From the NCBI RefSeq assembly GCF_000151665.1, contig NW_013171834.1:2501-66500 (forward strand): a stretch of DNA of 64,000 nt. Reading direction: 5' to 3'. Below are positions 1 through 41,482 of this stretch, one piece after another (the stretch's first letter is position 1; every line of letters starts with the position of its first letter). The stretch comes from Blastocystis hominis. Taxonomy: Eukaryota; Sar; Bigyra; Opalinata; Blastocystidae. Position numbers and translations under genes: made by a program. The notes below the pieces were generated by a model that did no database searches, was not told where the DNA came from, and was given only the letters and a program-made list of their open reading frames with translations.

Positions 1-3000
1 TATTTCCCACTCTCAAGTTCTCGTATAGCCGATTTGTAATCATATGCGAATTGTAGTTTGAATCCTTTTCCAATCGGTTTTCCATTAACCTGATAGTCTC
101 CCAGTTTATAAACAGGAGAAAATCTTTTCCCATTTACTTCTTTTCCCTTTTTCAACACTTCCTCTGTGATATATTCATCAATCACTTTTCCAGTTTTTGT
201 TTTCTCTCCACGACACAAATAGAGAATAATAAACAATATCGAATAATGGCCGAATGCTCCGTCGACTCCAAGATCATATTTGCTGTCGTTGATATCATCT
301 ATTTTGCTAATTGCATCTTGTCCATCTGTTTCATCAACGAAGCGAATTTGACTCAAGGTAGTTTCATAAATACTGGGAATGTCACAAATCTTACGGATAG
401 TTTCGATATTTGACCTTTCGATATTTGCGTTCAGCATCATTGCATCGATAGGTTGTTCGGGGATTGCACTCGAATCACTAGCCATTGATTCTTCGCTCAA
501 ATTTAGCAGTGTTTCGGAGAGTCGAGTAGGATTAGAATTCCAGATCATTGTTGGGAGCAAGTTGTTGAATCCACACAGATACAACCCAAGACCAATTCCC
601 AGATAGGTCATTTCACATTCATTCACAATTGAGTTGATTTCCAGTCGTGAATCATTGCATAGCACACCATTGGTTAGTACCATCATTACGGATTGGAAAG
701 AACGGGCATTGCAAGTACTACAAGCATAGCGAATGCAATCAGGCAAGCAAGTATTTTGGCAAGGAGACAACAAACTGTGATACAGTGCACCCACAATATT
801 GTTTTCCCACAAATCCAGGGATGGAATGCCTGTTGCTATCCGGATGATTTGAGAAGAAGCCACCCACAAATCAATACAGGGTAGTTGCATATTACTCAGA
901 TTTCGAAGGATTGAAAAGACTGTGATCAAGGAATGCGCTCGGTTTGTTTCACTAAATGCAATCGAAGAGCAGTCAATCACAACACTTGCATTGTAACTAC
1001 GAATCTTACCACTACCAAGCTTCTTGAAAAACTTGCCATCTCCAGTCTTATTGACTATATACTTGATATACTGTGCTATAAGAATCGATGATCCGGAGGT
1101 AGATGCGACGTGTGCCGTAGATTTATTGGGTAAGAACAGAGAGGTATTCATTGCTTCAAATAGATTCTCCTCTTGAATCTGTGCATTCAATGTTTTCAAT
1201 ATTACACTGCGAGTAGGAGAAGAATTTGAGTAATTCAATAAATCATTATCCGTGACTTCCAACATTTTAACTGGCTTCGCCTTGGTTATTTTATCGATTA
1301 TAGTTAGTGATTTGTCTACTTTGAATTCCATATTCAGGTCTTCATGAATGTCACATTCCCCATCTTCTGAAGTAGAAACATTCAAAGTAGTATTCATTGC
1401 CAACTCTTGCTTTTCATAAAACAGACTTGCCAGGGTTTCTATTGATAAACTTGAGACATCACTGACTTTCTCTATTAATATAAAATTATCTTGGAAATTG
1501 GCCAACAATGATTTCTCTAATAATATCTGATTGGAAATACTTAATGCTTCATCCTCTGTACCTTTTATACATAGCAAGAATAATTTCAAATAAACCCGAA
1601 ACACTGTCCTCACTTCTTCATTTGATGACATCAGTTGCTCACTAAATCCGTCGCCAACTATCAATACTGGATCTTTCTCATGGAATTGACCCTTGATTGT
1701 TAACAAGTCGAGAGGAGTTGATGGCATTTTTACCACCTCCTCCAAATCAAATAATAGCAGAATGATATCAAGAAGAGATCGATTGTTGAGCATAATACGA
1801 ACACCCTTATATCGACCACAAAGCACATACAAATTGAATGATATTCCGAGCTCTCTCATCACTGTAATGAAAATGCACGAAACGATGGTTCTCATTCGAA
1901 GTTTATTTTTTCTCAAACTGCAATTTGTGTCGATAATAATATTGATTTTGGTATGTGGCTTTTTGTTCATACAGTTCATGTGGCTTAACTTCTGAATAAT
2001 ATTGACCGCTGCACTCACAATTGACTGCACAATTGGATGAGTCATTCCATTTCCTTTCTCTTTGAATTCTACTATGGTGAGTGTACTTGATGTGTTTAGA
2101 GGCTTTACATATTTCTCTGTGGCTATACGTTTGTATACACTTTCAAATATCTCATCCATTTTCATATCGTTCATAATTCTTAGAAATGTCTTGTAATTGA
2201 CGGACTTGAATTCCTCTTGGTTTTCATTTGTATGATGGGTTGGTCTATCATCTTCTGTTTCATCTGTTTCTCTTTCCTTCATATCTACTGAATTCTTTTT
2301 CAATATTGTAACTACCCGACTTTGTACTTCATTATTGATTTCTTCAGATAGATTCACCATCTGGACCTCTTCTTTAGATTCATGGGTATCAATAGGTTCT
2401 GTCTGATCCATTGTGTATACTGTTTCAGTTTCACCTGTTGCATTGCCCGCTTCATTCTCATCTTCATTTGCTTCAGCTTTTACTAGATTTATTACAGCAT
2501 TCCATTCCAGCAAAGATCCTCGGTGGGAAATCATGTTCAGTACAGATTGTGCAGCCTTTTTTATGGAGGGAAGAATCACGTCATTCATACATCCATATAA
2601 GTAATGCAGAATTTCTTTACGCTTGTGTTCAGGTGCTGATACTATTACTAAAGATAAATTGGCAAAAGCGGACAAAAATTGAGTGAGTTGCCTCGATTGA
2701 AGACTGACTATTGATTTCTCATAATTTACAGTAGTTTTCGTTATGAACTCGATTGGGTTGTTGCTGTGCTCGTTACTTAGTATAGATAATCCTTTTTCAT
2801 TCCAAGTGAATCGCTTACTACTTGCACAGTTTTTCATAGGTATTACAGAGGAAAAGAGTGTTATTTCGGGATATTCAACTATTCTGGTTTCTTTGCCTTC
2901 ATTACAGTGAAATTGTTTATGTTCGCCGTTACAAAAGACATCAATATCAATAGGAAACGATGTTGCATATATTTTGCTATAATTGTATCGAGAATAATTG

Positions 3001-6000
3001 CAATATGTGCAAGGAACTGATGTCATCATGTAATTGATCATTTGTTTCCTCATATAGCTCAAATAAAACTGTACAGTAGCAAGCACTTCTCGTGTACCCT
3101 TCAGATAAGCCGTTGCAGTTAATTCCAGTTTCTTTTCTCCAACACCGTTATCATTCATCATAATCACAAATTGAGTCGAAGATTTACTAATACTGCAATG
3201 ATGTCCTTGTATTTCCAAGTCAACTTCTTCATTTGTAGTAAAATAAGGCAATGCAATCTGATAGCCATCGATTCCTTCATAACTATCTGGGAGTATGTAA
3301 GTATTGTTCTTGGGAAGACCAAATAACGCTTTTACTCCATCGTAATATACCACAATCACATCATTGAGTGTTGTGCCGATTACATCCTTCTGTTCATTTT
3401 CAACTTCGTGTGGAAAGAAGTAATGTGGTATCGATTCATATTCCAAGGTTTTTTTATTCAACATTATCTGTTTGTCGTCTAATTCCTGTTTTAGTTTATT
3501 CTTTTGTTGTTCTAATATCTTCAAAGAATCGTACTGTTGATTAAACCGAAAAACATCACAATCAGCAATTGCATCAATACTCACAATCGGTTCCAATTTA
3601 TCTCCATATTGTATAAAGTCATTCACAGTCCAGGATGATTTGATATTGTTTACACATAATTTGTCAATAGGCAAAATATCCTTGGAGGAAGTAATCTCAG
3701 TACATTTGATGGCATAGTAATAGTAATGATTCTGGAGTGGTAAGAAGATTTCACAATTATTTGGTAATTTATCAGAGTAATATAAAGTATCAGAGCTAGG
3801 AAAATAATAATAACACGTAGAATAGTGGTTCCTATTATAACTATACAGGGTTTTTTCAGTTACAGGTATTTTATACTTTAATGAAAACCTTTTAATCAAA
3901 CGAATCATAACTTGTAAGCAGTTCAGAACAAAATACATATCCCAGTCATATACGTATTGATATTTTCCCAAAAGAGATTTCTTAGTTCCGATATACTCCT
4001 TAAGTTGATTGACTTTTTTTGCACAGTACACAAAAGAAAGACCACCAGTATTCGCAGTATTCTTTGTATCCATTCGAATATCCACAGTCCATTTGAATGG
4101 TGCTAATGGTAGTACCAGTAAATAGCCATCACTAACAGACACACAATATTGCTTTAAAGTATCACCACTCAATTGAAATGTATCAGACTTCAAGTAACTC
4201 TGTAATCCTTTTGGAGCAAATAATGAAATAGTAGCAACAACACTGTATTTTAATAATATGTGATTCAGTGGAATGAAAATCATTTGGAAGTCAAATGGGT
4301 TATACTTCTTGCTAGTTGGGTTTTTTATACTATGCTGTTGCGAAGGCTCGTTATTTAAACAATTCCTTATTTCATTAGAACTAAGATTATTCACAGCATG
4401 CATAAAGCTAAACATTCTTATGGTATTCTCGTTGCGCTTTTGAAAATCTTCAGTGTATCCCTTTTGTTTGGTTATTTTTTTCGCTTTCTTCTCATATTTT
4501 GCAATCAACCGTCTTTTTTCTTTTTCCAACTTACTCCTTTGTGAATAGAATTGCTTCTCTTTCTCTTCTAATTTTCTTTTTATATCTCCACATTCTATTT
4601 GCATAGTATCCATCTCTGCTTCACAATTTGCTTGAGCTCTCATTATCACTTGTGATACAAGATCATCAATATTCTTCACATTTTGTATTACTTGCCGCAT
4701 CACTCCGCTTAGACTTGGTACCTTTATCATATCTAATACTACATATCCTTGAAGAGTTCGCTTGCGAGGACAGAGTATTTCCAGTTTTTCCTCCAAACTC
4801 ATTGGGCAATCAGCAGCCCACACCAATTCCAAAATAGAATTAGCAGAATTCTCTGAATAGCGAAGTGATCGCTCCATTTGCAAGATACCACTAGGAATAA
4901 TCGTTCCTGGCAGCACAACAGGAGGAAGATCGCATTTCCACCAAACATCAACTTGAGATATTTGTCTATATGTAAAGCGATCAACTTCCTTGGCATTATC
5001 TATTGCATATATTATTCTTGGAGATATTAATTCAATATCTTGAATATCTGTAGACGTAAACAATTTATCAATCAAATGCGTTTTCAATTGATCGAGTGCC
5101 TCCAACCTATTTGCTACTTTATTTTTCACCTCATTCCAATAGGACTCATACCAATCCTTGTCGAACAGCATTTCAATAGCTGTTTCAAATTCTTCTTGAG
5201 TAACATTCGTTGGAGTCACAAAAGGATAATCACTATAATCTTTGAGAAGACGATCCCATTGTAATCGCTCCATTTCTTTTTTCAACAACACATTTAGCAT
5301 AGTCAATAAATGAGGAAGCACTATTGATGAGTTTTTAAATTGTTGAAGAACATTAACAACACTCAATTCTAGTCTATTTATCTCTTCGGAATATTCGCTC
5401 AAAATAAACGGATAGTTTCTGAATGATTTCAGTTTATAAATAAGGTGCGATGTTTTTACAATAGACATATTTGTAAGTGACTTGTATTCACAGATGGAAT
5501 AATTCGTTTCAATTACGTTGAAATTCATTGAGTTGAATGTCTGAGAATCAATCATCCCATCTCTGAATGCTTCGAGCAAATGTCTTCTCAATTCATCATT
5601 GTTTCCACAGCAGCTTTCCGCTTCAGTAAATCTGTATTTCTTGCCTTGGACATCATCACCTTCCCTTTGTTCCATTACACTTTTCCTGACTGAAGATTCT
5701 ATGGTTTTTAGACTACATATTATTGTCTTCACTTGCACTGATTCCTTTATGTCAATTGGGAAACAATCCAAAACTGAAAGAACAGAGTCTAACCATGATT
5801 TTATTTGTGTACAATCTTCTAGACTAGCAGTACTGGAGTTTTCTGTCTTATATTTCATAATTGCCAAATAAGCACTTCTTATCTCTGTTATATCCTTCAT
5901 CATTTGTTCTGTCATATCACACCGATCACTTGTATCCAACATTGCAAATACCTCAACTGCAAATTCATAGAGTTCAGTTTCCTTCATGAATTCCATTAAC

Positions 6001-9000
6001 TCATTTCTTCTGTCACAAATGTATATTAACTCTAAGTAAATATACTGGTTTTGTGAAGAAATCTCGAACTGATCTCGAAGAAAAATTCTTTGGTTGATAT
6101 ACCAGTCTGTCATTTTAAAATAATGACGTGAAACGGGATCAATCACTTGTATTAAGTACCAACGACGAAGGACACCTGCATTCTCGCCTTCTTGCCTTTT
6201 CATCATACAATTCTGAAGGTTTTCCATTTCGAGTACTTTGATTGCACAATCCATTACATAATAGATAAAATGATTCTCGAAATACTTCAAACAGCTTCTC
6301 AGTAAATCTATCGTATCTGCTATTACGAATCCACTCTTTGTACTTGTACAAAGCTTTTCCATTATGGCAATCATTCGAGTCATTTTTCCATTTTCTGACA
6401 TATTGATAACACTATCCAAGAATTCTGATAGTTCATAATCTATCGAATGGGGAACTTTAATTTCTGATACAAGAGTATTCTTCTTTGGTGTATATCCAAA
6501 TTCATACAAAAATGCATCTCTTTCTTTACTGTTAATCACTCGAATACATCGTCGGAATGTCTCTGATTCTTCAATTCCAAAGTTACAAGGATTACAACTT
6601 GATTTTGATATTTGACAGATTTCTTGAACATTTGCTTGAGTCGATATTGGATCACAATACACAATCACACAACGACTCAAGAATGGTCCAGTAAAGTGTT
6701 TCAATGTATTATCCGATATTGTAAAGAAGATGCGGAATGCTTCGTGAATCCTTCTCTCTCCCCTTTTCGGTCGCATTGAATACGTTATTTCTTCATTTCC
6801 TGCTAATACCTTCAGTGTTGGGTTTTCTTCACACAGAGAATTCAGCGATTCCATCACATCATTGTTTGCCAAATGGATATCTTCGATCACGATCCAATCT
6901 CCACTTTCCATTGCTTTCAACAGCGGACCTTCTCTGAATGTGACACATTCATTCCCATTTTCATCAATTCCAAGAGTATTTCGACCAATGAACACATCTG
7001 GAGAACTTTCGTGATTCAAAAACACCGAAGTGCATTGTTTATCCCACATCAATGCCAGATTCGAAATACAATACGATTTGCCAGAGGGAGAAGAACCATA
7101 AACCAAAATGGCTCGTTTGGATTGTAAAGCAAGACTCAACTTGAATATCGTCACTTTCTCTGTTGAAGTGAAACAATACTCTTTGAAAGATCCTGAATAC
7201 ATTTGTTGTGTTTCAATGTCCCAATAACCACGAACAACACATTGATCGTCTTGTTTGATAATATCGACTTTCAATGTATCTTCCAGCTTCAATATCTTCT
7301 CGATTTCTTTTCTCTCCGATTCTTCATAACGACAAGCAAACACCAACCATAAAGCAGTTTCAAGAAGCAAATCATTTCCATTGGTTAATATTTGATCCAC
7401 TTTCAATACATCTCGAAGTGAGAATGGAATCGATGTCTTTTGATAGGAGTTGTAAGAGTGTTCAAATAACTCAAGAATCTGGCTTCTTTCTGATTGATTT
7501 TCGATTTTTAACACATTTTTTAAGATATTTAATGCTGTGAGGAACAATTCATTCAGTGTGAATTTCAAATCACGATGATAGATACAATACTTGTAGAATT
7601 GACGAGGCAATGTACTGCGATTTGCTGACATGGATGCTGGATTCATACAGCAAATGATCAGCATGTTCGATGGAATTTTGATCAAATCGCCTCCTGGAAC
7701 TTGGAATGGATCGTGATTCACATAACAACGAATCAGAGTGAGTAATACTTCAAGCACATCTGATGGTGCCAAATTCACTTCATCTAATAACAATGCAATT
7801 CGTTGATCTGAATGATCTCCTCTTTTCAATAGTTCTGTAATACTTCCATCTCTGAATTGTAATGATCCATTCACAATCGTGTAGCATCCAAACAAACTAT
7901 CAATCGTTATGGTATTCGAAAAATTGATTCGCTTATATACAAGATTCTCCTTTACGAAATAATTCTCAGCAGAAACAGATTTGCCTACTCCAGGATCTCC
8001 TTCTAGAATCAGAGGAAGATGACTTCGATCTGCCAATACGATGGATGCCAATAGCTGAATTGTGGTCTTTGTAGAAAGCAATGAACACTTGGAATGAAGA
8101 CTGGATTCTATATCATCAATAACATCATTTGTAAATAGGAATGATAGAGTTTGCTTCAAATTCTCTATCATTGCATCATCTTCATTGCTTGATTGAAGGA
8201 ATTCACTCACTTCCTTCAAATCCTCATTCATCATTCCTATTTGAATCAGATTTTCTCGAGATACCAAATCAGATTGAAGGAATCGAAGATAGAATGGAAT
8301 CACTTTCTCAGCATTCACAAATTCATTCCTCAGCATATCTGACTTTCGTAGAATGTGTAAAGGATAGTCATCTCGATTTTCAAACTCATATTTCGCCCTT
8401 TCTAATCCAGAATAGGGTTGACAAAACACTTGAATGAATTGGTCTTTCTTTGCAACTCTTCCATAATCTGGGTCTTCGCATGTTACAATCGCATTCACAG
8501 ATTTACCAAGAATCTCTGTTTGAATTTGGGAATAGTCCTCAAATAGACTAAACTCTTGCGAATCCAAACTAAACAACAATGAATATAATCGAGGAAGCAA
8601 TCGATCATTCAACAGATTGATATTGTTCAACACGATCGAATTGTTACTCATTATCGAACGGAGAATCGGACCAGGACGCATCATGAGCGATGATTTATCA
8701 TCTGTCCTGTCATGCAATAGCCTCTTCAGATACTCTCGATATGCCTCCATTGGAGTTCCATCAACATTTTGGATCGATGTTTGTCTCAAAATGTATTGAA
8801 TGTCTTCTTTACGACAAACAGAAATCTCACCAAATGTGTGAGACATTTCCATTGAACGAGACATTTCCATATGAGCAGCATTGGGAAACAGCAAATGAGT
8901 GACTTCAGAAGCAATATCTGAATCACCAACCAATAACACAGGAAGGCGAGTTTGCTTGAAATTGGAAATAGAAATAGTAAATAATGCAGTTAATACAGAA

Positions 9001-12000
9001 GAATCCAAATCCTTGAGTTTTGAATATTCGATTGGAACTGTTGTTTGAAGAGGTCCACGTTGAAGTATAGTATTTCTTTTTTGCTTTGCTGCAAAGTGGG
9101 CTTTGGACTTGATTGGTTTAGAGGAATAGGCATTGGTATTAATTGAATCTTGACTAGTATTTACAAGGTTTGTATTATACACAACATCCCCAATATCTGA
9201 ATCAGACATAGAATTTTCATTGTCTGAATCAGACATAGAATTCGCACTGTCTGAATCAGACATAGAATTCGCACTGTCTGAATCAGATATGATACTCTCT
9301 GCTTCTAAATTAAACATCGATTTTCCATGTTCATTTCCTTTTTGATTCCTCTTATTCATGGACTCGGGTATATGTCTAGTATGCTCTTCTTCATAATAGT
9401 ATTCATTGGATGATCTTATTTGATTATCATCCAATGTCGGTTTTACTAAGGAGGCAGCTGGAGTAGACAAAACCACACTTGCTGATTCCAATTCTTCTTT
9501 CATTTCCGTATCAGCTGTCTTTTTCCATTCTTCTATTATCCTGTGTAGTAGTTCTTTGCGATCCTTTCGATCTGCAAACAATGCTGCAACTCTCCAAATT
9601 GGATGAGAAGCATCGAAACAAATCTTATCCAGAGTGAATACTTCATTCAATGAAATCTCGCCACTATCAACATGATCACATAATCGTTTGCAGATTTCAC
9701 TATTCATCAACTCTTTCGCTTCAGCACTCTGGATTGGACTCATTTCACAAATATCGAAATAAGCAGGAAGAGAAGGCAACGAATTCACTCGACGTATTGT
9801 AAACACGAACAAAGCTCGGAATGAAGGATGAATTGAATGATTGATAGAGGCTGGATAAGTGAACTCATCAGTGAAAGGATCACAAACAGTATCAAGCATT
9901 TCCAGTAATTCTGCTGACATGTTTTCAGCATTTTCGAATATCACTAATTCTCCACTTTCTACAGCTTGGAGCAATCTTCCAGCTCGGAAATCGCCATTCA
10001 TATTCACACTTCCCATCAAAGTGGAAAACTCGGTTTCTCCAGATACACTGAACACTTGATAGCTTCTGATATAGAGCTTATTGATGATTTCGTGAACTGC
10101 ATAGGACTTTCCACTGCCTCTAGGTCCACACAATGCCACAGCCTTGTTTTTGCAAATACAATAGAACAATCTTGAAGCTTCAGTCCGATGGCTTCGAAGG
10201 GATTGCAGTTCAGGAATTGGTGGTTGTTTAGCGAGCATTTCAATCAGAGATTCATCCAATTCGTATCCACACACTTCTCTTGCAAAGCAGGCCATTCGAT
10301 GGAGTTCTTGCTGCTTGAACCAGTCGATTGTTTTGGAATAATCATGAATCGTGAAATCAATTTCATCTCTTGTAATCTTGCCCAGTTTGGCCGAGTTTTC
10401 AAATCGCTTTGCATCTTCATGACTCACAAATACTTCCAAAAATCGATTTCTCAAGGCAGGAGAAAATGCCAGCAATCCTTTCTCAGACGTTGTTGCGATT
10501 ACACGGAATTCGGAACTCATTTCGAATTCCGGCCTTTCTCGACGTTCATCAAATCGAACTACATGATGATGGCTATCTACAGGTGATAATTCCAACACAG
10601 AATTCAATCGCTCGATCACATTCGATTTCATCAAATGCATCGACTGAAGAACACAAATACCTCCATTTTCAATCGCTTTAAGCAATGGAGAAGGACAGAA
10701 ACGAGGAACTGGTTTGCCTTCATCATCATCTTTCTCGAGCGAATAGCTTCCAATCACACTTTCTGTTGAAGAAGTCGAACTGCAATGAATCACTTCACAG
10801 GATGTTCCTTCATTCTGCATTATCTCCATTACTGCTCGACAATACTTTCGAGATACATATTCTGTTTCTCCAATCAATAGAACATGACATCCAGATTCCA
10901 ATCCTAGTCGAACTCGATCATACACATCCTTCCAGCATTCCTTGTCTAAAGCAGCTTCACTGAAAGTAATATCCGCTTTGAATACTGGATTTGTTTTCAA
11001 ATCTTCATTATATGCGATTTGTAAAGCTCGATCCAATGCTTTGCTTTCACCGATTTTCTCTTTTTCTATCAGTGTTTCCATCATCCATTTTGTACGACTA
11101 CAATCTCGAAGTGTGTAATCCTTCCCTTTATCAATCTCTCTTCCAGACACATTCCTTCGATTATCAGCTCGATCATGAATCTCACACACTCTTCTTCCAA
11201 TTTCTGCATTTCCTCCAAACATCGCCGTTATGATGTCTAATCTTTCCTCTCTATCAATCATTGGGAAGTATTTCTGTTTCGTTGAATCGTGAGTGACAAA
11301 ACGGAAACAATCGCGAATTGCAGAAGACAGATTGCTTCGCTTGTATGAGCTTCCAGCAGGATTTTGAGTGGCAATAATGCGGAAATCTCGATGCATTACA
11401 CGCTCTTCACTTCCATCCTTGCCTTCATGGAGAATCTTCTTGCCAAACAAATACGATAACACACTCTGAACCACAGAAGGAGGAGCCAAAGACATTTCAT
11501 CCATCAATAGCAGTTTGCCATGAATGAATGCATCTGTGAAAGCTCCATCCTGGAATCTGATCTTCTCTGTATCATCGTTCGTAATCACCATATCTCCAAG
11601 CAATTCCTCAGTTGTGGACGAAGGACTGAAGTTGTATCTCACAAAGGGAACGAGAGAACGTCGACAGTATTGCTCCACTGTGAATGTTTTGCCTGACGAA
11701 GTCACTCCCTCAATTACCACTGGAATGTTGTATTGAATCACATCTTCCACGATTTGATTTCGAATTCGGGTTTGATTTGTTTCTCTGATAAACGGAGGAT
11801 CTTCTTTCATTGTTTCCACATATCGATAGGCTTTCGATTCGATATACTCCCAATCCTCTCTGTCAGAGCGTATTGCCATGATTAATTGAACGTATTCCTC
11901 TGTGGAATGGAAAATGAGCACATCGGATCTACATAATACGGTGATAACCTTATTCTCATCAAGGGGAGACAAAATGCCAATCGTAGCATTCTTCACTCCA

Positions 12001-14956
12001 GAAATGCAGTGGAAATAGATTGTTTCAGGAATGATATTATAAGTTTGATCTTCATCATGATTGATAAGTGGAAGAATGAATGTTTTTCCCTCTCTCTGCA
12101 GATGTGGCTTTCCCCTGAAATTCATTCTATCTCCCACATGAACAAAATCACATCCATCAGTCAAAGCAGATTGAAGGGAATGAAAACTCTTGGCAAAAGG
12201 TTGGTTATAATTCACTTTTAAGGAATCGAAAATCTCAGAAACATATTTATGTGTTTTGACTTCGTAAACCAAAATCGATTCCTCATTTCCATAACTTCTC
12301 TTGCCTCTGTGCTCCATGAATTCAAAATCATTATCATCAAAATCGTTTAGCCCTATATTGTCATAGCAAATGAATTCTAATACCTATCGAAACAATATAT
12401 TTAGTCTTTATCATTCGTTGATTTTCTGTCAGTGGTTCGTTCAAGACACTACTTATTTCTTTGTTGTTGATAAATATCAGGAATTTCCTATTACTTTCAC
12501 TTATTGTCATACTACAATTATCTGTAATATCATCGATATATTTTTGATTTGATGCCTCCTCTATATTTTATTTTTTATCATTAATCATACCCAAAATGAC
12601 TCGAAATTCTTTCAATGCTTTATAATTATTGTTCAACATTCTCATCAGTTCACTAATATCCTCTCTTTTGATTATATAATCTTGGAATTACAAATCGCAT
12701 CAATAGCATACAGGAAATTGATATACTGGTGAATTGTAAGTCTTGTGAACGAAAATCGTAAACTATTTCGATTGTTGTCTCGCTAATTTTGTCTACTTCT
12801 TATTCCTTTTTATCGGAATTACCAGATATTATCAGGGTTTCTAAAAACGAGAATCTTCGATCCCTTAATAGTACTTCCTTCCATTTTATTAGATTCATCG
12901 GTAGTTTCTCCCCTGAAAATTATGCTACTACAACGAGTATACACTGGCTATGAAAAGAAATGCTTCCGAGGATCCTCGGATTTTGATAAAAAGTTGGAGT
13001 CAAAGCCTTGGCTAATTCAATTGATCTTAGTGAAAAATGCTTAACCGACAGTTTGTTTTTCTACTCAATGAACAATACTATCCAAAATAACAGGAACAAC
13101 AAGTAGAGAAATATGGGGCATCTCCATTCTAGCAATATCAGCTGCATCTGCTATTCTGCCACTCTCATCTAGAATATGGAAATTATCCTTATCCTCCTCT
13201 GAGAGCTTGCTCTAAAGGTAACTTCTGATGAATGAAGCAACGTTAATAAACAATGTTATCTCATCCCTCACCTTATAGATGGTTTTCCCCATAATACTGT
13301 GTTCAAAACTGACTTCTTCTGCAGCATACAAAATTAGTATTGTCAAATTCACTTTTATGAATGGTTCCTCTTTCTTTTGGTCTTGCTGAAGTTTAACTAC
13401 ATAGTAATCTAATTGACTACGGACTCATACTGTCAAATGACAAAGGAGAGTCACCCCATAATCCAACAGTCGAATGAATATCAATTGGTTTCGTATCATA
13501 TGATAGTGTCACAAGTATCTTTGATTGTGTTTCAGTATCCATTTCTTTCTTATAGATAGTCTACGGTCAATGTATATATTTCTAAACATACTCTCCAGTG
13601 TATCTTTAAATAATCGTGAACAGTCCAATTAACATAATAGTCATATTTATATGTGTTCTTTTGGACGTTATCAACCAGACTAACAAATCGTTTCCTAAAC
13701 TCTTTTTTGTGGACTATACGATATCATCAACTCTACTACTACATACCAAATAACTTATCTCCTGTTTGAACACCTTGAGAAACAAATGAATCATTGGGAT
13801 TTAATATCTCTCGATCATTTAACCATAAGGTATATTCAGTTGAATTTAAAAGTATGTCATTCAGAAGATCTTTGACAAGGCCGTTTTCTAGAATCTCCAG
13901 CGACTCCGTAACGCTATTAGATTCCTTAATCACTTCAATACGAATTGTTCGATATTCACAATAATCATACTCTTTAGAACTTACAGCAAAATGGAAAACC
14001 TACTTTGCAGATCCATTGACTGATTTATCACACCTCGAAGAATGACAATAGAATTCTTCTTTGTTAGAAAAAGAGAAGTTGAGTAATTCATTTTCTTCGA
14101 TTCAACTTCCATAATAGAGGTGATAAGAATTTGATTCACAAAAGGGAATGGAGTACGNNNNNNNNNNNNNNNNNNNNNNNNNNNNNNNNNNNNNNNNNNN
14201 NNNNNNNNNNNNNNNNNNNNNNNNNNNNNNNNNNNNNNNNNNNNNNNNNNNNNNNNNNNNNNNNNNNNNNNNNNNNNNNNNNNNNNNNNNNNNNNNNNNN
14301 NNNNATTCGCGACCAAAAAGAATCATTCGAATTTCTCCCGTAGGCGGTTCTACAGGTTGAACAATATTCCCTGTCCCGGCGTGGTCTACGAATGGTAATA
14401 TAAAAGAAATAATAATAATTACTAAATGAGCTTTCAAACCTTTGACTGTTATTCACCGCACCGTCTATAATGTAAATGCAAGACTAATTACAATAAAATA
14501 CATGTGGAGCACCTTAATACGAGATCCTGGGAAATGCCTTCAACCGGGATGAGTTGTGTGTCACTCCAGTTGTCGAAATAAAACTTATTTCTGTCACTTG
14601 TATCGCAGCTAATATTCCTTTTCTGTAAAAAATAGGACAGCAATGTGCTAACATAAATGTTGGTATAATATGGACATTCATATTTTCTTTCATTCCATAT
14701 GATTTTATACGTACATATTTTTCTGATAAAAAGAATATCGTTGTCGTTACACTGACTAGCTAATGATTGACTTATTACCAGTTTCTTTTTTCCTATATGA
14801 AACTCCACGTCATTTATATTCAAACCAAAGTCATTCTACATACAATCAGGCTACGAATGAGATTACCATTATTGCGCGCTCAAGATTGGCTAGGACGTCA
14901 TCTTGTTGTATAGTATAGAAAACAGATGAATGCCCATCAAAAAGACGAATGATCAT
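1..14956 (-). CDS. Giant UBL-array / six-AAA+ / dual-VWA protein (midasin-like), 3' end off the window
   Basis: The start ATG is at 14956. Exon 1 (14867-14956) opens with MIIRLFDGHSSVFYTIQQDD, a ubiquitin-like strand pattern. Introns read as 14836-14866, 14484-14520, 14386-14422, 13972-14003, 13714-13746, 13561-13591, 13397-13430, 13212-13241, 13061-13091, 12913-12944, 12783-12822 (boundaries uncertain), 12661-12691, 12561-12590 and 12353-12383. From 12352 to base 1 the frame is open without interruption (about 4,117 codons). Six AAA+ modules follow in order. Intact P-loops are GVTSSGKT (~11.70 kb), GPRGSGKS (~10.12), GDPGVGKS (~7.99) and GSSPSGKS (~7.09). Modules 2 (~10.87) and 4 (~8.93) have degenerate P-loops. 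Walker B examples are LLLMDE and LLLDEVNLA; NPA sensor-type motifs follow. Near the end are two VWA-like folds (IIIDTNCS ~1.93 kb; VVIDCSSI ~0.98 kb). Six AAA+ modules plus C-terminal VWA is the midasin/Rea1 plan, whose VWA (MIDAS) binds UBL partners; here UBL folds lie in the same chain. Function is inferred only. The 147-N gap lies in exon 4. Confidence 0.85.
9195..9292 (-). repeat. 27-bp tandem repeat coding a Ser/Asp-rich nonamer in the giant gene
   Basis: Three to four near-identical copies of a 27-base unit encode SDSDSANSM-type nonamers. They sit in a low-complexity stretch between AAA+ modules 3 and 4, at a position where no domain is visible. The unit length is a multiple of three, so copy-number change would keep the frame. 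Confidence 0.85.
13592..14956 (-). other. Ubiquitin-like fold array at the N-terminus of the giant protein
   Basis: Three segments look like beta-grasp (ubiquitin-like) folds. The first is residues ~1-70, ending NDNDILFIRK. The second follows directly, from TYKIIWNERKYEC to LSCIYIID. The third, about 13.74-13.95 kb, contains SLEILENGLVKDLLNDILL and ends GVQTGDKLFV, closely matching the ubiquitin spacing of strand, helix and two late strands. A further weaker candidate lies at about 13.1-13.4 kb (LTILILYAAEEVSFEH). The alternation of hydrophobic residues and the helix position are visible. Assignment to the ubiquitin superfamily is by eye, with no profile search. Confidence 0.6.
14158..14304. 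other. Assembly gap (147 N)
   Basis: A run of N interrupts exon 4 of the giant gene. The coding frame is recognisable on both sides (GEIRMILFGRE before it, PFVNQILITS after it, reading the minus strand). Its true length and any intron inside it are unknown. Confidence 0.99.
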
Positions 14957-19226: not shown

Positions 19227-22200
19227 ATGTCTCGAAAAGTTATTGGGGTGATTGTTTCTTTTATGTTGTCTGTGACGATTTTCTCTCTGTATATGTTTTT
19301 CTATGAAAAATGTAATGTTTTTGTGGTACCCTTTATATTTATAGTCGTGTCTCGTGCTTTTTTGGATTGGAAGTTGAAAGTCTTTGGAAAATATGAAAAT
19401 CCGCTTTCCGGGATGACTCTAAAGAATAGGATCGTTAAATGGGACCGAAGCGTACCTACACTGTTTTTTTCGGCACATCCGTTGTATGTTCTCTGTCTCT
19501 GTTTGAAATATAGCGAAAAGCTACGAACAGCGGTAATAACTGCTAACACACCTGCTGAAGGTAATGTGTTCAAAGTTAAACCTTCAATGGGTCCTTTTTT
19601 ATTCAGGAGAGATAATCAGCCTACGAAGGTGTCAAATGAAGAATTAAATGTTGTATAAAAAAGAATATTAATATGTAGAATGTCGCTCTTGAAGAGAAGA
19701 CATTACCATCTACCTCTATGCTGAGTCTATCTTCTGAATCGAAAACTGAAACTGAAACCAGTGATCAAAAAGAGATTAAAACTATGGAAGAATCAAAGGA
19801 TACAGCAGAAATAGTTGTTGAAACGAAGGATCATGAAAAGCAAGTAATAGAAGAAGCAGAAGGCGATTCGAAAGAGGAAGCTGAGAAAGAAATGAAGCAG
19901 GAAGTTGTTACTGTATCAAAGGAAAGTGAAAGTGAAAATGAAAGTGAGTCGAAAGAAGAAAAGGAAGCTGAGGGCAAATCGAAAGAAGAAATTGAAAGTG
20001 AATCGAAAGAGGAAGCTGAAACCGAAAGTGAAAGTACCACCGAATCGAAAGAGGAAAAAGAAGCTGAGGGCGAATCAAAGGAAGAAGCCGAAAGTGAATC
20101 GAAAGAAGAAGCTGAAAGTGAATCGAAAGAAGAAAAGGAAGAAGCCGAAGCTGAATCAAAGGAAGAAGCTGAGACCGAAAGTGAAAGTAAAACCGAATCA
20201 AAGGAAGAAGCTGAAACCGAATCGAAAGAAGAAGTTGAGACAGAGTCAAAAGAAGAAGTTGAAAGTGAATCGAAAGAAGAAACTGAAACCAAATCAAAAG
20301 AAGAAGTTGAAAGTGAATCGAAAGAAGAAAAGGAAGCTGAGACAGAGTCAAAAGAAGAAGCTGAAACCAAAAGTGAAAGTAAAACCGAATCAAAGGAAGA
20401 AGCCGAAACTGAATCGAAAGAAGAAAAGGAAGAAGTTGAAAGTGAATCAAAGGAAGAAGCTGAAAGTGAATCGAAAGAAGAAGCTGAAGCTGAATCAAAG
20501 GAAGAAGCTGAGACCAAAAGTGAAAGTACAACCGAATCGAAAGAAGAAAAGGAAGCTGAAGCTGAATCAAAGGAAGAAGCTGAAAGTGAATCGAAAGAAG
20601 AAGCCGAAAGTGAATCGAAAGAAGAAGCCGAAACTGAATCAAAAGAAGAAGCTGAAAGTGAATCAAAAGAAGAAGCCGAAAGTGAATCAAAGGAAGAAGC
20701 TGAAAGTGAATCGAAAGAAGAAGCCGAAAGTGAATCAAAAGAAGAAGCTGAAGGTAAATCAAAGGAAGAAACTGAAAGTACCGCCGAATCGAAAGAAGAA
20801 GCTGAGACTGAAATGAAGGATAGCACAGAGGCTGAAGAAAGTGATTCAAGCAGCCCTATGACTACCACGATTCACGACAGTTCCGTGATCTCTTCATTTG
20901 CCACTTTTTCAAATTCGACGCGAGCAACAAAACTTTCTCCCACCTTCTCCTACTCATCATCATCATCATCTAACAATCTAACGAATCTCATCTTTAAACG
21001 TCATCCAATAAATACAAAGAAGCGAACCATATATACCGATATTTTAAAGAACATCGGTAAAAAGCGAATGCCATTCGCTGGGGATTTCAATTTCCGACAG
21101 CGTCACAAGATTCGCTACTTCGAAGGCTCGCATCCCGACACCGTTCCTCGCAATCGCAGCATGATTCCAGAGACAGATCACTACGATATTACAATGATCT
21201 CTCAGACATCGTAGCGTTTGAAAACCTTGCTGATCTCTAGCACAGAACGCTTGTTTTTCTTCCCCCATCTTCTTGAAAGATGGCAAGGGTCCTCTTCTTT
21301 CTGGTCGGTTTGATTTGTAGCCCGATGAGCGTCACGATCATGGTGAAGCAGAAAGAACTGAAGAAGGTGGTGACGTTTATTAAAAAACAGAACTTCCCCG
21401 ATCGATTGCGACTCGCTCTCTACATTTACGACTACCCGAATCAACGGGACTGCGTTTATCACAGAGTGAATGGCAAAATGGAGTGCATTTACAAAACGAT
21501 TTACCCCATCAACCGTCTTCGGAATATTGCCATCGAAAACTCTCTCACGAGCCATTTTGTTGTCTTCGATATGGATATGTGGCCTGCCCGTTCGACCCTC
21601 CTTCTCCTCTCACAACTAGGATTCACGTATCAGACGCTCCTCAATCTTCCGCCGTCCTATCTTAGCAATCCCTACTTCGTAACGATCGTTCCAGCTTTCT
21701 CCCTTTCGAAAGGTGTGCTGGAGACTTCGAAGTGCAGCGATCTAAAGTCCTGCGTGAACGTGTAATAGTCGCCGGCTTTCCTCTCCACTCTAGCGCCATT
21801 AAGTATTACCCCGAAACCAAAGAAGACCTCCGCCTTTGCATAGGCAAACGACAGTGCACCATTTTCCGCCCCCATTCGCTGACGCATAACTATCTGCCCA
21901 GGAGATGGACTACCTTGCCTCAGAACCGACCTGTCGTTTATTATTCCTGCTTCAGGGAGCACTTCTTAGAGCCGTATGTCATGGTGCATCGCACCGAATC
22001 TCTTCCCTTATTCGACGAGCGATTCATCAATTACGGATTCAACAAGGTGCAGTGGATCGAGAACTTGAGATACTTTGGCTACGAATTCTACGTTCTCTCT
22101 CACGCGTATGCGGTCGATATTCCTCACTCCTTGTATTGGCTATGGTTCGCTTCGATCGCATAGGTCCGGATATGCCATGGAGTATCGAAATGAATTCAAG

Positions 22201-37691: not shown

Positions 37692-40600
37692 ATGCCTTCT
37701 TTTTCTGGAGTAAAACGTGCCAACCTTTTTTCGTCATATAGTTATTTCTAGTTTTATTTATAGAAATGAGGATGATGCATCTTCGAAAGAAATGAACATC
37801 CACCTAGAGAGTTTTTATTCTCTGTATGGAATCGTGAAGGATGTACAAAAGAGAATTGTAGAAGGCAGCTTGTCCCATTCAGAAGTTGCTGTAGAGGTCG
37901 AACGAGTGAACAATGAGGAGCAGGATGCATCGGATGGATGTGGTAGTGATAATGGACAATTTACAGTGATTCTACGCGATGCGTGGTACTTTTTTGAGAG
38001 TGTTGTGACATAGGTGTTCTACTGTTGTATCTGTTGGTGACAATGTAAGTATTGTATTGTTTTCCACCGATACACGCCCTCCTTACATTGTATCGGAGTC
38101 CAGTGCAAGCTATCTTATCGTTCATCCAAGCTACATGCTTACAGCAACAAACATTTCCACTTCCTTTCATTGTATACGTCGTTCCATTCTCTCAACTTTT
38201 CTCTCCTCATCCGAAAGTAATCTTTATGCATTAATGGGTCAAATGCGGCACAGACTCTTTGAATATGGCTCCTCTTTACCGTTTGATTACACAAAAGCAG
38301 TGGCAAGTCCATACATCATCCACAATTGCCATAAATTTATACTCTCTTTGATCCGAGAAAGCACACATGCTATCTATGAAGTGGGTGCTGATCTCTGCTA
38401 TGTTTATGAAAGCTTGCATGCGTGCATTCCTGGTATCATTGAATGGATCGTCAGTCTTCATCAAGACAATTCGAGTTTGAAAAAGGTGGATCTGTGTGAA
38501 GATTCGGTGTGGTGTCCATCGTTAGGATTAAAGGGAGTGATCGATATGACGTGTGAAGTAGAAACAAAAGACGGAATTCTTCGAGTTCCTGTGGAAATCA
38601 AAACTGGAAAGGAGGATCCGATTTCCCATTCTGCTCAGGTTTATTTGTATTCGCTGATGTTGGCGAGTTTTCATGGCAATCATTCGTTGCTTTCACCTTC
38701 TCAGAAGGTTTCCAGTGTTTTGGTGTACTTGAAAAGCGAACCACTGAATATTTCGAAGTTCTATCAAACTGCACACAATGATATTCTGAATGAGTTGAAC
38801 TCAGGAGCGAAAGGTCCTTATATTGATAAAGTACTTTCAATGATTCGGATCCGCTCTGAGGCGATTTTGGCTCATCGGGGATCGTTTCTGATCAAGCGTT
38901 TCAAGCCGCTACAACATTTGTACTTGTCGAATATCGTTCTTCGGCGAAATTTGCTTGCAACCTACATTTTAAGAGTGAAGGGAGGGTTGGGATTGGATCG
39001 AAATTGCCAGGAAAGCGAAGATATCGAAGATTTGCTGAGTTTTTCTCAACGAATCGACGAAGCGTATCAAGGGTTGTCTCTCCCTGAGGAATGTGGAAAT
39101 GCCGTGTTTTGCTCACAATGTGGGTGTTATCCGCTTTGTAAGTTGCTGTCTCTATCCAAATCGTATGGGGACAATGAAGCAAGGGAAGCCACCGGAATTG
39201 ACAAGGAGACGACTGATCCAAGTCAACTGAATTCTCCCGGTCAATCCAATTTATCTATAACGTATTTTAAGAAATGGGTTTGTGTTGATTGATTGGATTG
39301 AATCTAGATGTCTCTCATTCAAATGGAACGTTTGGAAAACGAGAAGAAAGATCCAAATGCCAATATTTGGAGTCAGTCTACTTCAAAAAGAGTAGCTTCA
39401 GGTCTGTGCATTTTGGATGTTGAGCTACTGAAAACAAAAAAGATGGGCTCTACTTCTTCATGGATTCACTTCTTTTCTTGTCCATCGCGTTGGGATGTTG
39501 AAGACGGGGAAGTCGTACTTGTTTCGACAATGAATGGAGAATGGGGAAAGGCTTACGCGACGATTATCAGCTTGTCTTCCAAGGAAATGGAGTTTTCCAT
39601 TGAGCTGGCTCGAAATACAAAGCATCTACTCACGGCGACTGCAGGAGTTGCGTTGGATAAATCGAAGAAATACCGATTAGACAAATTCCATTCCTTTGAT
39701 ATTTCCTCTATTTTGGTGAATAATATTGTTTCGTTTGCTATTTCGCCCCTTGTAGGAACCAACCAAACAAATTCAATGATATCCCGTTTTCAAGACATTA
39801 TCATCAATGGCAAAGAACCCACGATGGACAACCGCTTTTCGTCCCTAAATCAAATCATTGAAACCATCGAAGATCGCAAAATGCTCGCGCTTTTAGGTGA
39901 AGAAGAGTGGAATGATTCCAGTGAGCAGTTGTTTTTACATGTTCAAAAACTCATCAAACAATGCAATGCTGAGCAGCAACAAGCCATTCTTATGTGCTTC
40001 AACTCTAATGATATAGCGATTTTGAGGGGATATCCGGGCACTGGAAAAACGACGGTGATTTCTGTGATTGTTATCCTTTGCGTGTTGCTGAGAAAGAGCG
40101 TATTCCTCACATCTCACACTCATACAGCCATTGATAATATTCTTCTTAAGTTGCTTCAGCATGGTAAATATAAACGTTCTGCATTCTGAATAGATTTGCC
40201 GATTTTAAGACTTGGAGATATCGCGAAGATCCATCCTCAAACAACTCGCTATCACATATCAAATCAATGGTCTGGAGACTTTGGCACTTACCAGTCGATT
40301 TATGAATCGAAATCGATTGTTGCCGCCACGGTCTACACGAATCTACAACAGTTTCCGAGAGGCAAAGTGTTTGATCTTTGCATTGTCGATGAAGCTGGAC
40401 AGATTCCAGAGCCTTCGATCCTACAAGCGTTTCTTCTTTCCAAACAGGTTTTTCTTGTTGGAGACTCCAAGCAACTGCCTCCGATCGTGCAGAATCCACT
40501 CGCTGCGAAATTCGGATTCGATATTTCGTTGATGGCGCGACTGGAACAGAGCGGAAGTGAAGATTCGAAGTGGATAGGCAAGCTTTACACACAATACCGA

Positions 40601-41209
40601 ATGAACGAACCCATCATGAATCTTGTGAACCATCTCGTTTATGATAATACATTACGAGCAGCTTCTGAATCGATCGCAAATGCGTTTCTGCCAGTTCGGA
40701 TCGATTCAAACGCTCCTATGTGGATACAGACAGTGCTGAGTCCCGCTAATGGCGTTGTCTTCATTTCTACAGACAGTCAGTCCAAAGAAAGGAATGAAAA
40801 GGAAATTCAAGAAGAGGATAATCGTCGAAGTAGCATGCTCGAAGCTCGTATAGTCTCTGAACTAATCAAATACATCACAAGTGGAGGGGTTTCCAGCGAA
40901 TCGATTGGTATTATCTCCCCTTACAATGCTCAGGTTGCTTACATCCAGTCCGTAATTGGAGATAAATCAATCGAAATATCAACGGTTGATAGTTTTCAGG
41001 TAGCACTCATAGGGGAGTTTGATGGATAGGGAAGAGAAAAGGAATGTATTATCATATCGCTAGTGAGAAACAATAGAAAGCAGAAGATTGGAACATTGCT
41101 AAAGGATTGGAGGCGAATTAACGTGGCGTTCAGTCGAGCAACAAGAAAGCTGATCATTATTGGTTCAGAAATCACTTTGTGCGCGGAGCCAATTTGGTTA
41201 GAGGTATGA
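37692..41209 (+). CDS. DNA2: DNA2 replication helicase/nuclease
   Basis: Introns 37733-37763, 37986-38013, 39278-39307, 40164-40193 and 41000-41029 join all frames into 1,122 residues. The N-terminal Dna2 OB/nuclease region has [11 protein letters not shown] and [10 protein letters not shown] (RecB/Cas4-type nuclease residues D and E-x-K) and a late [11 protein letters not shown] cluster for the 4Fe-4S site. The SF1 helicase follows: QQAILMCF, motif [10 protein letters not shown], Ia [45 protein letters not shown] (restored by the last intron), [15 protein letters not shown]2 processes Okazaki flaps and resected DNA ends. All major motifs look intact, with a normal family length. Confidence 0.95.
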
Positions 41210-41409: not shown

Positions 41410-41482
41410 TCCGAAGTAGTATAGTGGTTTAGTATTTCCGCCTGTCACGCGGACGACCGGGGTTCGATTCCCCGCTTCGGAG
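41410..41482 (+). tRNA. tRNA-Asp (GTC)
   Basis: A 73-nt cloverleaf. The acceptor stem TCCGAAG pairs with CTTCGGA, with G as discriminator. The anticodon arm is CCGC-CTGTCAC-GCGG, with anticodon GTC. The T arm is CGGGG-TTCGATT-CCCCG. The internal promoter A box (TAGTATAGTGG) and B box (GGTTCGATTCC) are canonical. T-rich sequence follows for Pol III termination. No intron. The anticodon G34 is the position modified to queuosine in tRNA-Asp, relevant to the neighbouring QTMAN gene. Confidence 0.97.

Follow-up and report, generated by a model that had tools for sequence, protein, structure and literature searches.

This locus raises the question of what kind of machine is encoded by a 12.35-kb open frame lying at the beginning of the window, that is, the 64,000-nucleotide stretch of DNA analyzed here (positions 2501-66500 of contig C20 of the 18.7 Mb Blastocystis hominis genome). 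The genome of B. hominis subtype 7 was described as 18.8 Mb in size, with intron lengths sharply distributed around 32 nt (PMC3129679). Our main reading, to which we assign a probability of roughly 55%, is that the frame belongs to a family of giant midasin-derived AAA+ mechanoenzymes, represented by 14 dispersed loci and one divergent relative, in which the ends are mosaic, the ring is homogenized and the product would remodel clients. In predicted order, the domains are a fast-evolving array of ubiquitin-like (UBL) type, a ring of six modules that hardly differs between copies, a long linker and VWA-like domains in tandem. A preliminary description of the window had already proposed a giant protein at this position; the predicted layout was confirmed by sequence, but the description was incomplete in that it missed the 14-locus family.

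A whole-genome match placed the window copy among 14 dispersed loci with 91-95% identical core DNA, and the same 14 loci were recovered when AAA1 and C-terminal protein pieces were used as queries. A divergent 15th locus on C13 (33% identity), possibly an ancestral-type copy, was excluded from the paralogue statistics; UBL-like exons, ring and VWA parts could be recognized in it by eye (C13:703.8-714.9 kb; L023, L053, L067). In 12 of the 14 copies, the giant frame was open at either end tested, in the window copy through N's; it was broken in copies C5 and C24, which we count against the main reading. Because C20:1-2500, which adjoins the window, consists entirely of N, the tail of the window copy ends early.

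All features of the gene described below lie on the minus strand. The model begins with an ATG at 14956 and proceeds through a chain of small exons, with GT..AG introns between them, to the giant frame at 12352. The model of the window copy contains 15 introns of about 30 nt each, found when GT..AG introns were searched for within a preset length range of 27-37 nt. The giant exon (3..12352) is open to the window edge, with only N beyond. The small exons nearest to it (12384..13713) encode U6, a linker and a conserved beta-rich block, P1-P4; their lengths recur across paralogues, and values near 120, 118, 87, 81, 93 and 171-180 are found with small variations in most of them. A run of 147 N's (14158-14304) falls inside the U3/U4 part, where the flanking exons are uncertain. 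In all 14 copies, the best exon path was in frame with the giant exon, and the models together comprise 181 introns of 28-37 nt, mostly GTA..TAG. Note that the C8a model begins too far upstream, and the C34 and C23 models begin after U1. In a read-through control on 10 copies (all except the window copy, C8a, C34 and C23), an exon path was obtained for 10/10 real N-terminal stretches, 0/10 reverse complements and 0/100 two-base-block shuffles, showing that a permissive search alone does not produce such an exon chain. The proposed splicing of small exons in frame onto the 12.35-kb exon was thus borne out by the models of all copies and by the controls. In addition, median ps and pn for N-terminal pairs were 0.72 and 0.49, respectively, which would be consistent with purifying selection.

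We next describe the ring. The giant exon matched Pfam AAA_5 in five stretches (E 7e-56), and six AAA+ modules were placed by motifs. AAA1 (11484..11720; Walker A GVTSSGKT, Walker B LLLMDE) and AAA5 (7760..8005) have both Walker motifs intact. AAA3 (9910..10130) and AAA6 (6860..7100) have an intact Walker A with an altered Walker B, VIFENAEN and IED, respectively. AAA2 (10630..10880), in which both motifs are degenerate, and the likewise degenerate AAA4 (8600..8940) have lost Walker A. Between AAA3 and AAA4 lies an insert of SDSDxxNSM repeats (9186..9287), a 27-nt tandem repeat, and the query stretch 2692-3086 around it was unmatched in the other 13 loci. The homogenized core as a whole spans 6620..12200. 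Of the 11 PDB sequences that it matched at E up to 1, the best was midasin (E 9e-42), and none but midasin is a multi-module protein. When family modules were scored against those of midasin, module 1 scored best with AAA3, module 2 with AAA4, module 5 with AAA5 and module 6 with AAA3, the last a mismatch that counts against the main reading; modules 3 and 4 had no clear best partner. In a weak module tree, AAA1 and AAA5 fell together with the odd modules of midasin, in an open group. The midasin-type six-AAA+ array postulated previously is therefore supported by the Pfam, PDB and motif results, with two modules devoid of Walker A; the module phylogeny suggested at the time groups AAA1 and AAA5 with midasin odd modules, but the group is moderately supported (85/96) and takes in one dynein module.

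Single UBL sequences were too diverged for firm Pfam matches, and profiles were therefore built from the paralogues. Specifically, U1 was represented by 12 of the 14 copies (the C34 and C23 models begin later), U3 by eight rows from 7 of the 14 copies (C8a twice) and U5 by 12 of the 14. U1, the N-terminal domain (14719..14956), is split by a 31-nt intron (14866-14836). The U1 profile matched SUMO/SMT3 over positions 2-65, almost the full length of the domain, with E 4e-6, among the 60 of 337 matches listed; Pfam ubiquitin was matched by 3 of its 12 members (best E 0.0054), the window's own member alone matched no family, and comparison with one ubiquitin sequence gave probabilities of 28-59. 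U2 (14504..14718) is a weak candidate, with an hhalign probability of 48-56 to U3 and ubiquitin-like Pfam matches in none of the four members tested. The U3/U4 region (14106..14360) is largely masked in the window copy, with half of U3 lost to N's, and the U3 profile derives from seven other copies. Pfam ubiquitin (best E 2.3e-4) and Rad60-SLD (best E 1.4e-4) were each matched by four of the eight U3 rows, CLU_N by three and DUF2604 by four, and the profile matched ISG15 in the PDB with E 0.005. The U5 exon (13747..13999) carries a domain at 13954-13748 that ends in SQGV..GDKLF. The window's U5 alone matched the GABP-alpha OST domain (E 1.5e-4, below the curated Pfam cut-off) and YukD (0.059); YukD was matched by four and Ubiquitin_5 by two of the 12 members. 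YukD has a beta-grasp fold, as does the GABP-alpha OST domain. In the PDB, the U5 profile gave weak matches to DEPDC5 (E 0.23) and to a redesigned ubiquitin (E 0.45).

These profile results, in which beta-grasp families predominate, support U1 and U3 as ubiquitin-like folds, and U5 more weakly so. Several results count against the main reading: the Pfam scan returned nothing ubiquitin-like for U2, U4 and U6, and most of the P block had no independent fold support, P1 of copy C23 giving a ULD_2 match with E 0.018. No single-member UBL match reached the curated Pfam cut-off where cut-offs were shown, and the UBL scans also returned unrelated families, mostly in one or two members, such as YceI (0.015, U5), YihI (0.0096, U3) and CdsD_C (0.0088, C2). 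Accordingly, the earlier count of three or more ubiquitin-like folds holds for U1, U3 and, less firmly, U5, with U2, U4 and U6 as candidates; judged from their sequence profiles, the first folds resemble beta-grasp domains. In the models, arrays grow and shrink between copies; units are repeated in C34 and C8a, and some are absent from C5 and C38. In the C9 copy (L059, L019), the linker after the UBL array is a length-variable segment with many GGFTQSS/GGLAKPKS repeats.

Both C-terminal VWA-like folds reported for the window were found again, and the paralogues extend the tail beyond its edge. VWA_A (1600..1950), a fold inferred from motifs, has a metal site that is nearer to complete (DTNCS, with GDG in the window copy and SDG or GDG across copies), and its profile did not convincingly match the C-terminus of midasin (probability 10). 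VWA_B (620..992) together with the preceding stretch matched the midasin C-terminus over 172 columns with an hhalign probability of 91 and E 1e-6 in one comparison, and VWA_B matched the crystallized midasin MIDAS domain (PDB 6qt8) with E 0.0018, using a profile that includes a Dysnectes row. Its metal motif is degenerate in all 14 copies, which read DCSS instead of DXSXS and TNG instead of (S/T)DG. The preceding segment (993..1103) is homologous to the element II loop, which docks MIDAS in the ring pore in Rea1 (PMC6624252); it is recognizable in 13 of the 14 copies, C5 deviating, and no copy has a PY (PY-NLS) in it. By these sequence criteria, VWA_B is the midasin MIDAS homologue with its ring-docking loop. 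At 3..275, the window holds the start of a conserved alpha/beta domain (CSPGDG..GTARWISNA in paralogues), for which the PDB yielded a response regulator as a weak match (E 0.007). A third domain, VWA_C, lies beyond the window and is present in 11 of the 13 readable paralogues, with DTTGS, DATGS or a variant. Its profile gave a best PDB match of E 0.68, and VWA_C of the B. hominis protein P0001 matched Pfam VWA_4 below the cut-off (E 0.0013). VWA_C is missing in C5 and C23, with no trace in the 0.8 kb read downstream, which counts against the main reading. These two copies (L051, L052) keep a short C-terminal end, ..GIS or ..KIS.

The copies are not uniformly alike along their length. At fourfold-degenerate sites, median identity was 0.91 for pieces of AAA1 (14 copies) and AAA5 (13 copies), against 0.51 for the C-terminal piece (14 copies). 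In 60-residue windows, the ring of the window copy was 0.75-1.0 identical to P0001, except for 0.62 beside the copy-specific insert, and identity dropped after residue 1920 of the frame, which is the end of AAA6. Furthermore, N- and C-terminal similarities were uncorrelated over 91 pairs: Mantel rho was 0.07, a value reached or exceeded in 701 of 2000 permutations. The window copy and C2, for example, are 0.97 identical in the tail but 0.30 in the front, and C34 and C38 share a tail (0.91) and a similar 3' flank with fronts at 0.36. Conversely, C6 and C14 are 0.84 identical in the front, their N-terminal exons and introns reading 0.90-0.98 at the DNA level, whereas their tails agree at 0.61. 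The pattern is contradicted by C5, C8a and C8b, which are alike at both ends. Such mosaic ends imply that N- and C-terminal halves were exchanged between loci while the ring was homogenized. Gene conversion with crossing-over through the ring would be the simplest account, and the ring looks like a recombination hub that joins different UBL arrays to different VWA tails. For other duplicated blocks in this genome, Denoeud and colleagues considered that gene conversion might have had a homogenizing effect (PMC3129679). New here are a ring that is near-identical at synonymous sites, ends that are strongly diverged, and front and tail relationships that are uncorrelated.

Three other explanations were weighed against this reading. 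Near-identity of the core could reflect strong constraint on the ring, including its codons, without any gene conversion or recombination, and the ring is indeed also the most conserved part among distant homologues. However, the contrast in fourfold identity between core and C-terminus occurs within the same genes, and the pairs C20/C2 and C6/C14 share one end at high identity and not the other, making constraint of this kind unlikely. Still less credible, in our judgment, is that the 14 loci represent a mobile or otherwise selfish element with a captured motor gene. Dispersed copies with a near-identical core would suit such an element, but the ends have diverged more than the core, the opposite of what recent transposition leaves, and no common element ends or flanks were found. 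Specifically, upstream flanks (536-1500 nt) of 11 of the 14 copies contained no similar pair, and among 14 downstream flanks, mostly about 100-130 nt and taken from the 13 copies other than the window copy plus the divergent C13 relative, two pairs were alike. Ring-derived patterns also found no relative in viral contigs or genome contigs, and a viral or prokaryotic origin was rejected at the sensitivity of these ring-only patterns. The remaining explanation is that two adjacent genes are involved, one for the UBL array and a separate one for the giant AAA/VWA protein. P0001 (4307 aa), the sole B. hominis member returned from the protein collection, starts within the giant exon and lacks the front end, as two genes would predict. 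Against this, every best model splices in frame through 28-37 nt introns, the last small exons mostly keep their lengths, the controls yield no exon path, and the sequence between 12.4 and 13 kb, where transcripts of two genes were expected to end, bears no sign of a gene break. Moreover, the published annotation treated predicted repeats as intron or intergenic segments (PMC3129679), which could conceal a near-identical core; masking of the core as a repeat during annotation is likely the reason why the collection holds only one B. hominis member. We therefore regard two genes as improbable.

Under the preferred reading of one midasin-derived giant, the function can be sketched by analogy. 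The ATP-driven ring, with Walker A in modules 1, 3, 5 and 6, would work as in midasin: VWA_B would dock into the pore via the element II loop, and the ring would pull on clients gripped by the VWA tail. The UBL array may target or tether the machine to partners, e.g., ubiquitin- or SUMO-type receptors. A constant motor with variable ends suggests that different copies serve different clients, and client remodelling is the role that we infer for the giants. Since VWA_B does not have the full metal site, the Rea1 grip cannot be copied exactly, and the loss of PY suggests that import does not follow the known Kap104 route. It is also conceivable that the UBLs of a giant bind its own VWAs as pseudo-substrates, holding the motor inactive until they are displaced by a client, or that such binding links copies into oligomers. 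In Rea1, MIDAS binds the UBL domains of Rsa4 and Ytm1 (PMC6624252); here both kinds of domain occur in one model, and VWA_A and VWA_C keep more of the metal site (DTNCS with SDG or GDG; DTTGS or DATGS). This self-binding is doubtful, however, given the degenerate metal site of the Rea1-type VWA_B, the lack of NLE matches in the UBLs tested, and the shuffling of arrays against VWA tails (Mantel rho 0.07), which a specific in-cis interface would resist. Hence, the earlier claim that UBL, ring and VWA share one polypeptide is upheld as a single gene model, but not the Rea1-type clasp (VWA_B with DCSS/TNG in 14/14 copies; no NLE match in the UBLs tested). More tentatively, the midasin-derived family could form a combinatorial repertoire, in which a constant midasin-type motor serves as the recombination hub that re-pairs UBL arrays and VWA tails into client-specific or self/non-self remodellers; this is a possible extension, and one that we hold with less confidence than the family assignment itself.

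How the giants relate to known systems was examined by sequence comparison. As in midasin/Rea1/MDN1, the nearest solved structure by sequence, six AAA+ modules stand in one chain, and the order of ring, long linker, acidic stretch and C-terminal MIDAS VWA preceded by the element II loop is that of Rea1. Beyond the midasin layout, the giants carry a UBL-type array at the N-terminus, an additional alpha/beta domain and two more VWA-like domains; they lack an AAA_lid_7 match and PY in the loop, their VWA_B metal site is degenerate, and they exist as 14 mosaic copies beside a separate midasin-signature locus. A whole-genome search for AAA_lid_7 gave four matches, three in this midasin-signature locus (C13:1.31 Mb), one in a dynein-like gene on C18 and none in the 14 loci; P0001 had none at E up to 10. 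The C18 hit, which we take from its motifs, by eye, to be a dynein heavy chain, was rejected as a family member. NLE (PF08154), the UBL family of Rsa4 and Ytm1, matched at C8:255 kb, C24:961 kb and C24:1010 kb and in none of the giant-protein UBLs tested. In Rsa4/Notchless and Ytm1/WDR12, the UBL domains are bound by a midasin-type VWA (PMC6624252), and an Rsa4/Ytm1-type identity was rejected for the UBLs of the giants, since none of those tested gave an NLE match. With a midasin-signature locus and three NLE matches elsewhere in the genome, the giants look like an additional machine, one predicted to be midasin-derived but distinct from midasin.

Membership in other AAA+ groups was also considered. 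RNF213 is a giant protein with a six-module dynein-like AAA core; unlike it, the giants have no RING or E3 domain in Pfam scans, and no RNF213 chain appeared among PDB matches up to E 1, so that membership was rejected. Dynein heavy chain membership was likewise rejected, as no dynein chain was matched in the PDB up to E 1. Pfam's dynein-derived AAA_7 matched the giant above cut-off (E 6e-14), as expected within the dynein-midasin clade. In bacteria, MoxR-vWA ternary conflict systems (VMAP and others) couple MoxR-clade AAA+ to vWA with diversified partners; their AAA+ are separate proteins thought to be hexameric (PMC7159879), in contrast to the six modules in one chain here. For this comparison, ring-derived patterns found no relative in genome contigs. 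The main texts of two Blastocystis genome papers (PMC3129679, PMC5608401) do not contain "midasin", "dynein" or "von Willebrand", and a Blastocystis SNP table lists a "Midasin-like protein" by product name only (PMC9896827), possibly either the giant family or ordinary midasin. Within open-access full texts, we found no described protein combining a UBL array, a midasin-type ring and VWA, in agreement with the initial impression that the layout is undescribed.

Further relatives were found in the protein collection. Three ENA proteins (P0002-P0004) have 38-39% identity, and a fourth (P0028) has 33% over the tail. P0029 (5355 aa; Blastocystis sp. Blastoise) has the tail and four Walker A sites, whose partners in the tree are family modules 1, 3, 5 and 6; no UBL array was found in it by sequence, which counts against the main reading. 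A search of the protein collection with two N-terminal arrays gave no hit among the 7,998 candidates scored, which weighs in the same direction. The EukProt protein P0030 (3198 aa) of the metamonad Dysnectes brevis has the tail in common with the family at 24-28% identity, and its VWA_B contains DxSxS and TDG. By BLASTP against a 29-protein database, the VWA_B segment of P0030 matched three midasin-type proteins (best 31% over 87 aa, E 2e-4). Its first 2,100 residues had no homology to the family linker, and no ring was seen in P0030. The Dysnectes tail suggests an older machine of anaerobic protists, and may reflect inheritance or transfer between them.

Midasin is regarded as a single machine essential to ribosome assembly. 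In B. hominis, which ranks among the commonest human gut eukaryotes, its architecture would have been duplicated and would have acquired a UBL-type front as well as two additional VWA-like domains, with diversification yielding 14 mosaic genes; this would show that midasin-type motors can be retargeted. The copies thereby offer a natural set of variants with one constant motor and differing recognition ends on either side of it.

Elsewhere in the window, an open frame at 19679-21214 consists of ESKEEAE-type tandem repeats. Two open frames at 39308-41029 read, by their motifs, like what we presume to be a DNA2-type helicase, and a tRNA gene was identified at 41410-41482 with Rfam.
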